In this document: one piece after another, positions 10,603 through 47,101 of the stretch | How the letters are laid out: each line of letters starts with the position of its first letter | Numbering within the stretch: the stretch's first letter is position 1 | Assembly (NCBI RefSeq): GCF_004353525.1 | Contig: NZ_CP085524.1 | Span: 2,730,001 to 2,794,000 of the forward strand | Length of the DNA stretch: 64,000 bases | DNA from: Zhaonella formicivorans | Lineage (GTDB): Bacteria; Bacillota; DUOV01; Zhaonellaceae | Direction: 5' to 3' | Program-made: the position numbers and the translations under genes | Notes under the pieces: model-generated | What the model saw: only the letters and a program-made list of their open reading frames with translations | Databases searched by the model: none | What the model was told of the DNA's origin: nothing

Positions 10603-10807
10603 TATTATTTGTGAAAACAACAATAGATTTAAAAAGTATGGCAGAATCCTTACAAAAACATGTAAAGTGTTGCGAAATGCTATAAAGAGTATTGAAAAAA
10701 CCTGCAATTTGGAATTTGTGGAAGGAAATACAAGTAAAATGTCTAATAAAAAATACACTTGATCTACAATTTGACTGCGTACAGCGAAATTAGAAAATTA
10801 AATAAGC
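10603..10807. other. AT-rich gap before the riboswitch
   Basis: About 200 bp of AT-rich DNA between the rsmI terminator and the riboswitch. It has no convincing gene; short frames on both strands lack RBSs. The promoter for the AOR operon should lie at its 3' end, but I cannot fix the -35 and -10 boxes with confidence. Confidence 0.5.
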
Positions 10808-10808
10808 G

Positions 10809-10904
10809 TATCTCTCCGAGCTGTGTTACCTAAAGGGAAACTATGGTATGCAGCCGCTAGGGTATACTGGGAAACGGGTATGCCTCCCAAGGGAAAGGAG
10901 AAGA
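10809..10904 (+). promoter_or_regulatory. molybdenum/tungsten cofactor riboswitch (Moco RNA family)
   Basis: The leader contains CTCTCCGAGC, GCCGCTAGGG, GGGAAACGGG and GCCTCCCAAGGGAAAGGAGA, in the order expected for the Moco RNA motif. CTCTCC near the 5' end pairs with GGAGAAG at the 3' end as the basal stem, and GGTATAC / GGGTATGCC forms an internal helix. Family knowledge: Moco RNAs control molybdopterin genes, and variants of the motif are linked to tungsten-cofactor enzymes. A tungsten-type AOR operon follows directly, so a tungsten-cofactor response is the natural reading, but this is inference. Confidence 0.85.
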
Positions 10905-10952
10905 AGAAAAATATTTTTCCTTCTAAACTTGGAGGCTTCCAGTTCTCGAGAC

Positions 10953-11112: not shown

Positions 11113-11856
11113 ATGTCTGAACAAGAGAAAAGAGTAATTGCTGACAGCGAGGGGAACGTCTCCAATTTACTTGGCAAAGCCATCAGCAGGCGTAAATTTT
11201 TAAAAGGCGGAATTTTTTCCGCAGCCGGAGTAGCGGGAATGACCCTGTTTGGCGCCCTGGGCGCTTATGCAGCTACAGAGGGTAAAGTGCCGCTTTTGGT
11301 TAAATCCAAAGGTGTAATTTTAGCCGAACCATCCAGATGCGTTGGCTGCCGTCGGTGCGAGCTGGCTTGTACGGAATTTAAGGAAGGAAAATCCCATCCC
11401 TTCATCGCCAGAATAAAAATATACCGCAACTTAAACTTTGGTCCTAAAGGAGTCCAATATGGATACTGGCGCAAAGAAGGCAAATACGGTAATTCCCGTA
11501 TAATCCAAGAAACATGTAAACAATGCGCCCATCCGGTTCCCTGTGCCATGTCCTGCCCAAATGGTGCCATCGAAGCTGATCCTGTAACAGGGGCCAGGGA
11601 AATCAATAGCAGCAAATGCGTAGGTTGTGGCATTTGTACCCGGGCCTGTCCTTGGGAAATGACCGCAGTGGATCCAGAAACCAAGAAGGCGACAAAGTGC
11701 AATCTTTGTGATGGGAATCCCATGTGTGTCGATGCTTGCCCGTCGGGAGCATTAAAATATATTTCCTGGCGTGATCTGACAAAAGAAGTGGCTGTGCGCC
11801 AGGCAAGTATCGCGGCTGTTAATGATAGCTGCAACCAGTGCCATGCAACTAAATAG
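11113..11856 (+). CDS. Tat-exported 4Fe-4S polyferredoxin, AOR partner
   Basis: A 247-residue ferredoxin with a twin-arginine signal (SRRKFLKG at 25-32, followed by a hydrophobic stretch and AYA near 51-53). Four cysteine clusters follow: CVGCRRCELAC (76-86), CKQCAHPVPCAMSC, CVGCGICTRAC and CNLCDGNPMCVDAC. A last CNQC lies at the C terminus. This is the layout of DMSO-reductase-type/YdhY-type electron-transfer subunits. It precedes AOR by 46 nt and presumably takes electrons from or gives them to it. The odd point is that this subunit has a Tat signal while AOR has none, so AOR would have to be co-exported or the signal act only as an anchor. RBS GAAGGAGGTTTAAGG. Confidence 0.88.
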   Translation: MSEQEKRVIADSEGNVSNLLGKAISRRKFLKGGIFSAAGVAGMTLFGALGAYAATEGKVPLLVKSKGVILAEPSRCVGCRRCELACTEFKEGKSHPFIARIKIYRNLNFGPKGVQYGYWRKEGKYGNSRIIQETCKQCAHPVPCAMSCPNGAIEADPVTGAREINSSKCVGCGICTRACPWEMTAVDPETKKATKCNLCDGNPMCVDACPSGALKYISWRDLTKEVAVRQASIAAVNDSCNQCHATK

Positions 11857-11902
11857 CGACATGGCTTCTAGTTTTTAGTATTGTTGAAGGAGGAGATAAG
11901 TA

Positions 11903-13993
11903 ATGGCTACTTACGGAGGATGGGCCGGCAAGGTTTTACGTGTAGATTTAGGTACCGGTAAAATTACCGCGGAAAATACCATTGAAAAATACAAGGATTT
12001 TTTAGGTGGGGGAACGGGTATAGGATATAAAGTAATGTGGGATGAAGTACCGGCGGGAACTAAAGCTTGGGACCCGGAAAACAGAATTATTTTCAGCTGT
12101 GGACCGTTAGCCGGAACAGGAGCACCTGCAAATGGCCGCACTGCCATTACATCATTGTGGCCCTTACATAAAAAAGAGCTGGTCGGCACTGGCCATATGG
12201 GCGGGCATTTTGCAGCGGAATTAAAATTTGCCGGTTGGGATGCCATAATTGTGCAAGGTAAAGCGGCCAGGCCGGTTTGGATTAGTATTGAGGATGAAAA
12301 AGTAGAAATTAAAGATGCAAGCCATTTGTGGGGTAACGGCATTTACAGGACTACTGCTGAAATCTGCGCCGAACTCGGTTCTTCTGCCCAGGTAGCGGCA
12401 ATCGGGCAAGCGGGAGAAAACCTGGTGCGCATGTCCAACATTATGACAGGAAATTCCCACTCTGCGGGAGGACTGGGCAGCGTGATGGGCTCAAAGAATC
12501 TCAAGGCTATCGGGGTTAAAGGCTCAAAATCTGTAAAAATTGCTGCTGACAAAAACGAATGGAAAAAATTAAATGATTATATTCTTTCACTGGCAGGGGC
12601 CAATAACCAGTGGGTAGTTCCCAAAACGCCGCAACCCTGGGCAGAGTATTCTGACAAAGGCAGCCGCTGGACTGCCAGCAAAGGGGTATACTGGGGTGCC
12701 GCAGATCCCCCGGTGGAAACAGGAACATGCGATCCCCACGATAAACATAGCATCGCTTACAGGACTCATAAAGGCATTTTTGACTTCGGCGACATTGGGG
12801 AAAAATATACGGTTCGAATGGATGGCTGCCATTCTTGCCCCATTCGCTGCCACATTGTTCTAAATGTTCCCTCTGCAGAGCGCTATGGGGTTTCGGGTTA
12901 TGCTACCAATACCTGCATCGGCTGGTGGGGCAGAGGCATTTTAAAAACCAAGAGGAATACCATTGAAGACTTGGAAGCTGCGGTAGTCGGCAAACACATG
13001 ACCGACGATTTGGGCTTGTGGTGTAATTATGGTTTGATAGGAAGAACACTTCATTACTTATATGAAAAAGGCGTTTTTAAGTCGGTTTTAAGTGAAACAG
13101 AATACAATAGCATTCCTTGGGATAAATATTTAAAAAATGATCCTGAATTTATTATTGATTTCTGCCGCCGGGTGGCTTTTAAAAAAGGTGAATTTGGTAT
13201 CGCAATGGGCGAAGGAATTGACAGGCTGATCGAAAGATGGAAGTTGGACCCAGAGGAGATTTCTAAGGACCATTACCTTGTTTACTTCTCCAACGGTTTC
13301 CCAAAGCACCATGCCAGTGAAAACGGTGGACAAGTGGGAATGTTAATCAATACGCAATACAACCGCGATTCCCAGTGCCATTCTCACTCCAACTTCCTCT
13401 CAAGCGGGCTGCCGCTGGAAATTAACAAAAAGCTCGGGGCTGAAATTTTTGGTTCTCCTGATGCCATCGACGCTAATGGCAATTATACTCCCATGAACCC
13501 GTATAAGGCCAAATTCGCCAAATGGGCGCTGATTAGAAAAGAACTCCATGATAGTTTGCCGCTTTGCAACTGGATGTTCCCGTGGATAGCCTCGCCGCTG
13601 AAAGAAAGAGGGTATAAGGGTGATACATCCATAGAGGCTCAATTATATTCTGCAGTTACCGGTGATAAGAAAACCGAAGCGGAATTGGATCTAATAGGGG
13701 AAAGGATTTTTAACCTCCACCGGGCTCTGACCATTCGCGGCATGGGCACCAAGGAAATGAGAAAAGAACATGACTATTTCCCGGAATGGGCATTCCACGA
13801 TGAAAATGGGAAGAAACCCTTTGAACCGGGTACCAATGTCATGGACAGGGATGACATGGAAAAGGCATTAGACTTATTCTATGCCGAACTCGGCTGGGAT
13901 AAGGATACTGGCGCTCCGACCAAAGAGACTTTGGAAAAATTGGGCTTAAAAGAAGTTGCCGCTGAATTGGGAGCAAAAGGCTTGTTACCATAG
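11903..13993 (+). CDS. aldehyde ferredoxin oxidoreductase, tungsten type
   Basis: A 696-residue AOR-family enzyme. Family knowledge: members carry a tungsten (or Mo) bis-pterin and one 4Fe-4S cluster and oxidise aldehydes, or reduce carboxylic acids, with ferredoxin. Seen: the N-terminal domain GGWAGKVLRVDLGTG and LGGGTGIGYKV, the cluster ligands C309, C312 and C316 (CHSCPIRC), and a fourth cysteine near 555 (LPLCNW). Length is slightly above archaeal AOR (about 605), closer to the YdhV/BamB-like branch. Substrate cannot be assigned. Strong RBS GAAGGAGGAG. Operon with the ferredoxin, YdhW-like protein and FdhD. Confidence 0.92.
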   Translation: MATYGGWAGKVLRVDLGTGKITAENTIEKYKDFLGGGTGIGYKVMWDEVPAGTKAWDPENRIIFSCGPLAGTGAPANGRTAITSLWPLHKKELVGTGHMGGHFAAELKFAGWDAIIVQGKAARPVWISIEDEKVEIKDASHLWGNGIYRTTAEICAELGSSAQVAAIGQAGENLVRMSNIMTGNSHSAGGLGSVMGSKNLKAIGVKGSKSVKIAADKNEWKKLNDYILSLAGANNQWVVPKTPQPWAEYSDKGSRWTASKGVYWGAADPPVETGTCDPHDKHSIAYRTHKGIFDFGDIGEKYTVRMDGCHSCPIRCHIVLNVPSAERYGVSGYATNTCIGWWGRGILKTKRNTIEDLEAAVVGKHMTDDLGLWCNYGLIGRTLHYLYEKGVFKSVLSETEYNSIPWDKYLKNDPEFIIDFCRRVAFKKGEFGIAMGEGIDRLIERWKLDPEEISKDHYLVYFSNGFPKHHASENGGQVGMLINTQYNRDSQCHSHSNFLSSGLPLEINKKLGAEIFGSPDAIDANGNYTPMNPYKAKFAKWALIRKELHDSLPLCNWMFPWIASPLKERGYKGDTSIEAQLYSAVTGDKKTEAELDLIGERIFNLHRALTIRGMGTKEMRKEHDYFPEWAFHDENGKKPFEPGTNVMDRDDMEKALDLFYAELGWDKDTGAPTKETLEKLGLKEVAAELGAKGLLP

Positions 13994-23054: not shown

Positions 23055-23085
23055 CGGCCAGGTTTATGACCTGGCTTTTCTTTTT
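23055..23085 (+). terminator. terminator after dehydrogenase
   Basis: GGCCAGGT / ACCTGGCTTTTCTTTTT. Confidence 0.9.
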
Positions 23086-23248
23086 CACTGATTTATATTT
23101 ACCGAATAAAAGATAAATAGTACAATAAAAATATAATATAGCCAGTAATATTCTAGTTGAACAAGGATTTAAAAGTGTAAAAAACATGCAAGGTGGAATG
23201 CTGGATTGGCCTTATGAGGTAGAGTATTAGAGCTTAGGAGGTGCATTC

Positions 23249-23383
23249 ATGGAAAATTGGGTTTCTTCCCTACTTTCTTTTCTTTTTATTATCGGCATTA
23301 TTTTCTTACTTAGCCGGGGCGGCGGCTGAGGCGGATACTCCTCGCATGGTGCATGCGAGTGGAAGCCGAAAAAGAAGGAATAA
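23249..23383 (+). CDS. candidate small membrane selenoprotein (in-frame TGA)
   Basis: A 26-codon frame (MENWVSSLLSFLFIIGII...) encodes one transmembrane segment and ends RGGG at TGA 23327-23329. The frame then continues in register, GGYSSHGACEWKPKKKE, to TAA at 23381, giving 44 residues if TGA is read. A strong RBS (TTAGGAGGTG) precedes the ATG. Eleven nucleotides after the TGA lies a perfect hairpin, CTCGCAT-GGTGC-ATGCGAG (23341-23359), with no T run. Position and a loop starting with GGU resemble bacterial SECIS elements. A single membrane segment, Gly-rich linker and selenocysteine near a basic C terminus would recall eukaryotic SelK in layout only. Alternatives: a 26-residue peptide ending at TGA, or a nonsense mutation. 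Confidence 0.5.
23341..23359 (+). promoter_or_regulatory. SECIS-like stem-loop
   Basis: A 7-bp perfect stem with a GGTGC loop starting 18 nt after the TGA codon at 23327-23329. In E. coli fdhF the corresponding stem starts 11 nt after UGA and carries GGU in the loop. Here the stem also starts 11 nt after UGA. Function is inferred. Confidence 0.45.
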
Positions 23384-45817: not shown

Positions 45818-47101
45818 ATGAAGTATAACCAGAACTCAAGAATTTTGCAAATAACAGAAAAGACTTTAATCATTGGTGTAGATGTAGCTAGCGAGACAAA
45901 TTACGCCAGAGCTTTCGATTACAGAGGCGTAGAACTAGCTAAGCTACTAAAATTCAATAATGACAACAACGGCTTCAAGACATTTTCTGAGTGGGTAAAA
46001 AGTGTGGCAAAACAACAGCAGAAGCAGCAGGTAATGGTTGGGATGGAGCCTACGGGACACTATTGGTTTACCTTTGCCCAGCATCTTAAGGATCACCAGC
46101 TGAAAATAGTACTAGTGAATCCGTTTCACGTAAAGCGAAGCAAAGAATTGGATGATAATAATCCGACCAAAAATGACCGAAAGGACCCAAAAACCATTGC
46201 CATGCTGGTAAAAGACGGTCGATACATGGAACCGTACATTCCCGAAGGAATTTACAGCGATTTACGAAATGCAATGGAAACCCGCTTAAGATTAGTGAAG
46301 CAGCTTAACAGCATCCGAAACAGAGTTAAACGCTGGATAAGCATATATTTCCCGGAGTTCAACAGAGTCTTTGGGGATTGGGAAGGCAAAGCAGCAATAG
46401 TAACGCTAAAAGAGTTTCCAACACCGGATAAAGTACTTGAAAAAGGCGTCGAAGGCATAGTTGCCAGCTGGAGAAAAGAAATCAGCAGAGCTGTTGGAGT
46501 TAGACGAGCCAGCCAACTAGTTGAGGCAGCAAAGATATCAGTAGGAGTACGAGAAGGATTAAGAGCAGCTCAAAATGAACTTGCCACACTACTAGAAGAA
46601 TATGAAATGCTGCAGAGGCAATATGAAAGGACAATGGCTCTAATAGAAGAATTAGCCATGCAGATTCCCGGTATTGAAGAAATGCTAAAAATCAAGGGAG
46701 TAGGCCTCATAGCAGCAGCAGGGTTTATAGCTGAAGTAGGGGATATTACAAGGTTTGAACATCCAAAGCAGGTACAGAAGCTGGCGGGACTAAGCCTGAA
46801 AGAAAATAGCTCAGGAAAGCATAAGGGCCAAACAACTATTAGCAAACGAGGGCGAAAAAGGCTAAGATCGTTGTTATTTCAAGGGATTATGCCCATAGTG
46901 GCTAAGAACAACGAATTTAAAGAACTACACCAGTACTACACAACAAGGCCACAGAACCCGCTCAAAAAGAAACAGTCGCTAGTACTCTTATGCTGTAAGC
47001 TCATAAGGATATTTTACACCTTACTGAGAAAAGGCGTAGCTTATGACCCACAAAAAATGATGAGTGATATAAGAAGGCAAGAATTACAGGAAGCCGCCTA
47101 A
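45818..47101 (+). CDS. IS110-family transposase
   Basis: A 427-residue transposase. The N-terminal DEDD RuvC-like domain begins IIGVDVASETNYA and includes VGMEPTGHYW and NPTKNDRKDPKTIAMLV. The C-terminal Transposase_20 domain has IPGIEEMLKIKGVGLIAAA and FEHPKQVQKLAGL, with the conserved Ser region (ENSSGKHKGQTTISKRGRK). It appears full length and intact, so the element may still be active. RBS AGAGGAGGT. Confidence 0.93.
   Translation: MKYNQNSRILQITEKTLIIGVDVASETNYARAFDYRGVELAKLLKFNNDNNGFKTFSEWVKSVAKQQQKQQVMVGMEPTGHYWFTFAQHLKDHQLKIVLVNPFHVKRSKELDDNNPTKNDRKDPKTIAMLVKDGRYMEPYIPEGIYSDLRNAMETRLRLVKQLNSIRNRVKRWISIYFPEFNRVFGDWEGKAAIVTLKEFPTPDKVLEKGVEGIVASWRKEISRAVGVRRASQLVEAAKISVGVREGLRAAQNELATLLEEYEMLQRQYERTMALIEELAMQIPGIEEMLKIKGVGLIAAAGFIAEVGDITRFEHPKQVQKLAGLSLKENSSGKHKGQTTISKRGRKRLRSLLFQGIMPIVAKNNEFKELHQYYTTRPQNPLKKKQSLVLLCCKLIRIFYTLLRKGVAYDPQKMMSDIRRQELQEAA

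Follow-up and report, generated by a model that had tools for sequence, protein, structure and literature searches.

In this study, a short reading frame interrupted by TGA was analysed in a 64,000-nucleotide stretch of the Zhaonella formicivorans genome (RefSeq assembly GCF_004353525.1, contig NZ_CP085524.1, positions 2,730,001 to 2,794,000), hereafter called the window and numbered from its first letter. The frame appears to encode a genuine membrane selenopeptide whose UGA would be read as selenocysteine (Sec) by the standard SelB route; the probability of this reading is put at roughly 0.92. The following features make up the gene:

23236-23242, + strand: ribosome-binding site AGGAGGT, 6 nt ahead of the ATG at 23249 (direct reading)
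23249-23383, + strand: putative selenopeptide gene, ATG 23249 to TAA 23381-23383 (reading; homologues)
23327-23329, + strand: in-frame TGA, putative Sec codon (TGA or TGY at this site in homologues)
23341-23359, + strand: hairpin CTCGCAT-GGTGC-ATGCGAG, resembling a bacterial Sec insertion sequence (bSECIS; reading, folding, and covariation with the relatives G125 and G052)

The frame consists of MENWVSSLLSFLFIIGIIFLLSRGGG (26 codons), the TGA, and GGYSSHGACEWKPKKKE (17 sense codons) before the TAA. Direct reading thus agrees with the original prediction, made from this DNA alone, of a 26-codon membrane peptide with a strong ribosome-binding site, a TGA, and 17 further codons. With the UGA read through, the product has 44 residues, with Sec at position 27 and Cys at position 36. 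A single transmembrane (TM) segment can be read at about residues 5-21; the N-terminus is acidic, and an Arg and four Lys follow the helix. A Pfam/NCBIfam scan of the peptide returned nothing above cut-off, and just a sub-threshold match to a single-TM Pfam model, ATP1G1_PLM_MAT8.

The stem CTCGCAT/ATGCGAG (23341-23347/23353-23359) is a perfect 7 bp and encloses the loop GGTGC (23348-23352); if the inner G-C pair forms, the stem extends to 8 bp and the loop becomes GUG. Eleven nucleotides (23330-23340) separate the TGA from the stem, and 18 separate it from the 5-nt loop; no T run lies 3' of the hairpin. The stem, spacing, loop, and missing T run had all been described correctly, as had the resemblance to Escherichia coli fdhF, the sequence of which has 11 nt between the UGA and GGUUGCAGGUCUGCACC, with GGUCU at the tip. 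The criteria for a bSECIS include a loop of 3-9 nt with G in the first two positions, a stem of 4-16 bp, a distance of 16-37 nt from the UGA, and a minimum free energy of at most -7.5 kcal/mol (PMC13188914). The window hairpin falls within these limits, with -13 kcal/mol for the 40-nt stretch that contains it, a loop start 18-19 nt past the UGA, and a stem of 7-8 bp. An Rfam scan of the peptide region gave no real match. Stems of at least 7 bp with G within the first two loop positions follow 6.7% of the TGAs in the window (n = 1771, both strands); the figure falls to 1.4% of the same 1771 when the stem must be 8 bp or longer and carry a GG/GU loop within the permitted range. Taken alone, the hairpin is only moderately unusual and insufficient to carry the selenoprotein claim; it stands above chance because homologues in three independent lineages show the same arrangement.

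The host genome (3.31 Mb, complete, single contig) encodes SelA, SelB, tRNA-Sec, and SelD. The four genes on which the original prediction depended, selA, selB, selC, and selD, are therefore all present in the same organism. selB adjoins selA, and the tRNA-Sec (UCA anticodon) is next to both. selD has an in-frame TGA of its own, with a short hairpin behind it that bears a G-rich loop; this organism is thus very likely to produce one or more selenoproteins besides the window peptide.

Homologues with TGA

A homology search covered 60 relatives first and then 399 genomes of the phylum; the search profile was built from seven members, including the window peptide. The closest homologue, in genome G125, reads (M)DKILETIGVLLLTVTFFIFISRGGG-UGA-GSYTSRGSCEPTKRPDSEE-stop. 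Around the UGA it has RGGG-UGA-GSYTSRGSCE, compared with RGGG-UGA-GGYSSHGACE in the window, and its hairpin shows the same 11-nt spacer and a covarying 8-bp stem. G006 and G052, of one genus, encode (M)EKFLELIPGILLVLFILWMLPKSGTGGG-UGA-AGGACEVPWSREQDEKKRRK-stop, with an 8-bp stem and a GGUCC loop. The spacing from Sec to Cys is U-x8-C in the window and G125, and U-x4-C in G052. Shorter forms occur in six genomes, with the UGA one to four codons ahead of the stop and the hairpin past the stop. G039 and G080 (one family) carry MDNILPLAFFLLALWFLFSRGG-UGA-GSSK-stop and MDNILPVVFLLLALWFATSGKGG-UGA-GG-stop; G013, G131, G097, and G186 (one family, f12) end in RRGGGGG-UGA-[C/G]-stop. The f12 hairpin, GCTTTC-GGT-GAAAGC, is the same in three genomes although the flanking bases drift, and in G186 it is GCCTTC-GTT-GAAGGC, with one compensated pair. 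In every TGA relative, a GG/GU loop is closed by a perfect 5-8 bp stem, about 16-26 nt from the UGA. Weak TGA matches in G021, G036, G247, and G328 were rejected as chance after inspection.

The original prediction would have failed had homologues always ended at this codon. They carry TGA or TGY in the same frame; members without Cys at the site have TGA in 10/10 cases, and TAA or TAG in none. A degenerate DNA pattern run against 84,980 genomes returned the G125 locus and six chance matches, and nothing else; long forms spaced exactly like this one are therefore rare.

Conservation downstream of the TGA

The tail of the window peptide scored 40 against that of G125 (BLOSUM62, local alignment), compared with a maximum of 29 in a null set of in-frame tails downstream of other TGA stops (n = 443). 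Over the first ten codons after the TGA the two genes differ at 14 nucleotides, 9 of them at third positions; 6/10 residues are identical, five of those six although the codons differ. When 14 changes were placed at random, this pattern was reached in 0.13% of trials (P = 0.0013), and the two other frames after the TGA are not conserved between the window and G125. In the long-form hairpins of the window, G125, and G052, 8/8 pairs are kept, with 5/8 changed on both sides and 0 broken, a covariation drawn from three sequences only, for which the shuffle counts are supportive and are not probabilities. Because of the tail score, the third-position drift, and the stem covariation, the sequence 3' of the TGA seems to be under constraint at two levels, the codons and the stem. 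The downstream conservation anticipated for this locus is thus found for codons and stem in G125, and for the stem also in G052.

Cys-containing relatives

With the same profile, about 25 genomes yielded peptides in which a TM segment is followed by RRGGCCGG or RGGGCCGG, with Cys-Cys where Sec lies in the window peptide. The Cys members end in His-rich tails or are fused to a YHS domain. The window peptide fits the family layout of a short N-terminus, a single TM segment, a basic residue, a Gly run, and Cys or Sec. Thus the TM-RGG(G/C)CCGG Cys peptides of Bacillota share the start, the single TM segment, and the Arg and Gly run of the Sec form, and differ from it in having a CC pair in place of G-U and often a His-rich tail or YHS domain (PF04945). 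A plasmid search for the family found YHS domains only.

The Cys members adjoin genes for heavy-metal P-type ATPases and HMA proteins (by reading) and for DsbD_TM (CcdA-like) and LGT-like proteins (by Pfam, as for YHS); this metal/thiol linkage is common, not universal, among them. The Sec forms of G039/G080 and the Cys form of G004 precede the same pair of genes, which encode a Peptidase_MA_2 protein and a Penicillinase_R regulator (Pfam for G039 and G004, reading for G080); the same gene order thus holds a Sec member in some genomes and a Cys member in another. Within 80 bases upstream of the Cys-form members in G036 (L007) and G040 (L008), dyads including TACCATACGGGGGTATGGTA and ATACCCCCGAAGGGTAT were read. 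They resemble CsoR-type operators and would fit a role in copper or sulfur stress.

Gene surroundings and possible function

Two further features lie upstream of the window peptide gene:

23056-23076, + strand: site resembling an intrinsic terminator, between the upstream dehydrogenase gene and the peptide gene
23129-23230, + strand: rhodanese-like remnant, C-terminal ~33 codons without a start, KYNIASNILVEQGFKSVKNMQGGMLDWPYEVEY-stop (similarity to the G125 rhodanese)

The neighbouring genes of the window read as 2-hydroxyacid dehydrogenase-like and aminotransferase-like, and the metal/thiol linkage is not found here. In G125 a rhodanese lipoprotein gene lies directly upstream of the homologous peptide, and the window remnant, which alone has no Pfam match, is 50% identical over 28 residues to the C-terminus of that protein. 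Because of this resemblance, the ancestral order was probably rhodanese-selenopeptide, and the window probably lost most of the rhodanese. The G052 peptide gene lies between a Rex-like regulator gene (by reading) and a DUF5714 gene; the f12 and f38 forms have other neighbours. The G052 DUF5714 gene (L032 1651-2349) directly follows the selenopeptide and is itself followed by a histidine-kinase-like gene.

In the proposed mechanism, SelB carrying Sec-tRNA(Sec) would bind the hairpin 11 nt past the UGA, Sec would be inserted at residue 27, and translation would then run through GGYSSHGACEWKPKKKE to the TAA. The positive-inside rule predicts an external N-terminus and an internal tail, because the N-terminus is acidic and an Arg and four Lys follow the helix. 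This would place Sec on the cytosolic side, a few residues beyond the membrane, where the Cys nine residues later (U-x8-C) could form a selenenylsulfide with it. Judging from the Cys relatives, the peptide may be a membrane-tethered selenol/thiol that handles soft metals (such as Cu and Hg) or reactive sulfur and oxidants at the membrane, a role to which we give about even odds. A different function, still that of a selenoprotein, would be that the Sec forms are redox partners of rhodanese, acting on sulfane sulfur or selenide and not on metals. The rhodanese lipoprotein gene of G125 and the remnant directly upstream in the window point this way. However, the association occurs in two genomes only, and in the window the rhodanese has been cut short; the neighbours differ in G052, G039/G080, and f12, and the Cys members are accompanied by genes for copper ATPase, CcdA-like, and LGT-like proteins. 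The rhodanese partnership is regarded as a less likely but serious alternative.

Evaluation of the Sec reading

The TGA could instead be a plain stop, which would leave a 26-residue membrane peptide ending in Gly and a hairpin that is incidental or a regulatory or terminator-like 3' structure. The frequency of comparable 7-bp stems after TGAs of the window and a weak fold z-score are compatible with this, and the short f12 and f38 forms make sense as peptides with a terminal GG. A plain stop is nevertheless improbable, since the downstream residues are conserved with G125 under third-position drift, the stem covaries, with its distance from the TGA unchanged in G125, no T run comes after it, and the site is Cys in the wider family and TGA, never TAA or TAG, in the ten members without Cys. 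Decoding of the UGA by near-cognate Trp read-through or a suppressor tRNA is scarcely credible: signs of translation past the UGA do not by themselves name the residue, but the residue found here in the relatives is Cys and not Trp.

Several observations weigh against reading the UGA as Sec. The fold z-score of the 40-nt stretch is weak (-1.25), and the hairpin on its own is statistically unremarkable. A directly alignable tail occurs in one close relative only, G125; the G052 tail scores 25-27, inside the null range, and has 4 residues fewer between Sec and Cys. The other two genomes of the host family, G001 and G002, show no convincing member, and no Cys orthologue bearing exactly the window tail (RGGGCGGYSSHGAC) was found. 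The Sec forms share no consistent operon, and their function is deduced from the Cys relatives. selB is present in 10/10 genomes with the TGA form and also in 24/27 Cys-only genomes searched; its presence is consistent with the Sec reading and does not discriminate, because most Cys-form genomes have it as well. The machinery, the frame, its conservation, the hairpin, and the family are shown by the sequences; from these we infer Sec insertion, topology, and function.

Relation to known selenoproteins

Among the 119 prokaryotic selenoprotein families listed in a 2026 review (PMC13188914), no match to the window family was found in a comparison by family names, motifs, and model scans only. By the same three measures, the peptide probably represents a new selenoprotein family that uses the standard mechanism. 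No Pfam or NCBIfam model scored above cut-off for the family members scanned, the YHS domain excepted; YHS-fused members gave sub-threshold PP0621_fam matches. NF049953, "hypothetical protein DG", has a GUxG motif (PMC13188914) superficially similar to that of the window family; it was rejected, as its 172-position model matches neither the window gene nor the genes of its relatives. NF041384, a YHS domain-containing selenoprotein with the motif GxU, recalls the YHS fusions of the Cys members, and its model matched no family member scanned.

The window peptide shares with selenoproteins read through a bSECIS, such as E. coli fdhF, the UGA, the 11-nt spacer, the short stem, and GGU at the loop tip. 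Unlike fdhF, it is a 44-residue membrane peptide and not a large enzyme, and in its short relatives the hairpin lies past the stop. The "SelK-like" character suggested in the original prediction holds for the layout: like eukaryotic SelK/SelS, the peptide has one TM segment, a Gly-rich or flexible tail, likely on the cytosolic side, and a single Sec. The likeness extends to layout alone. In SelK/SelS the Sec is near the C-terminus, whereas in the window peptide it is directly at the membrane.

Quite probably, these genes form an uncatalogued family of minimal membrane selenoproteins (~25-50 residues) with a single TM segment and one Sec at the membrane surface, in which Sec and Cys are exchanged across Bacillota; in some members Sec would precede the stop by one to four codons, with the SECIS in the 3' untranslated region. 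Gene callers, which here would end the gene after 26 codons, and homology pipelines easily overlook selenoproteins of this size. If the reading is correct, few selenoproteins would be smaller than this membrane-anchored Sec peptide, which would also extend the bacterial selenoproteome. It offers a compact system for testing the role of one selenol at a membrane surface, and since the Cys relatives tie the family to metal or thiol homeostasis, its function is directly testable.

Other features of the window

Three degenerate tandem 5S rRNA-like copies (1703-1817, 1844-1959, and 1986-2101, + strand; 40-45 bits) precede a normal 5S rRNA (2269-2383, + strand, 106 bits), downstream of the 23S gene. 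The open reading frame at 45818-47101 (+ strand) reads as an IS110-family transposase. A molybdenum cofactor (Moco)/tungsten riboswitch at 10802-10916 (+ strand) is followed, at 11113-13993 (+ strand), by a ferredoxin-like gene and an apparent tungsten aldehyde:ferredoxin oxidoreductase (by reading).
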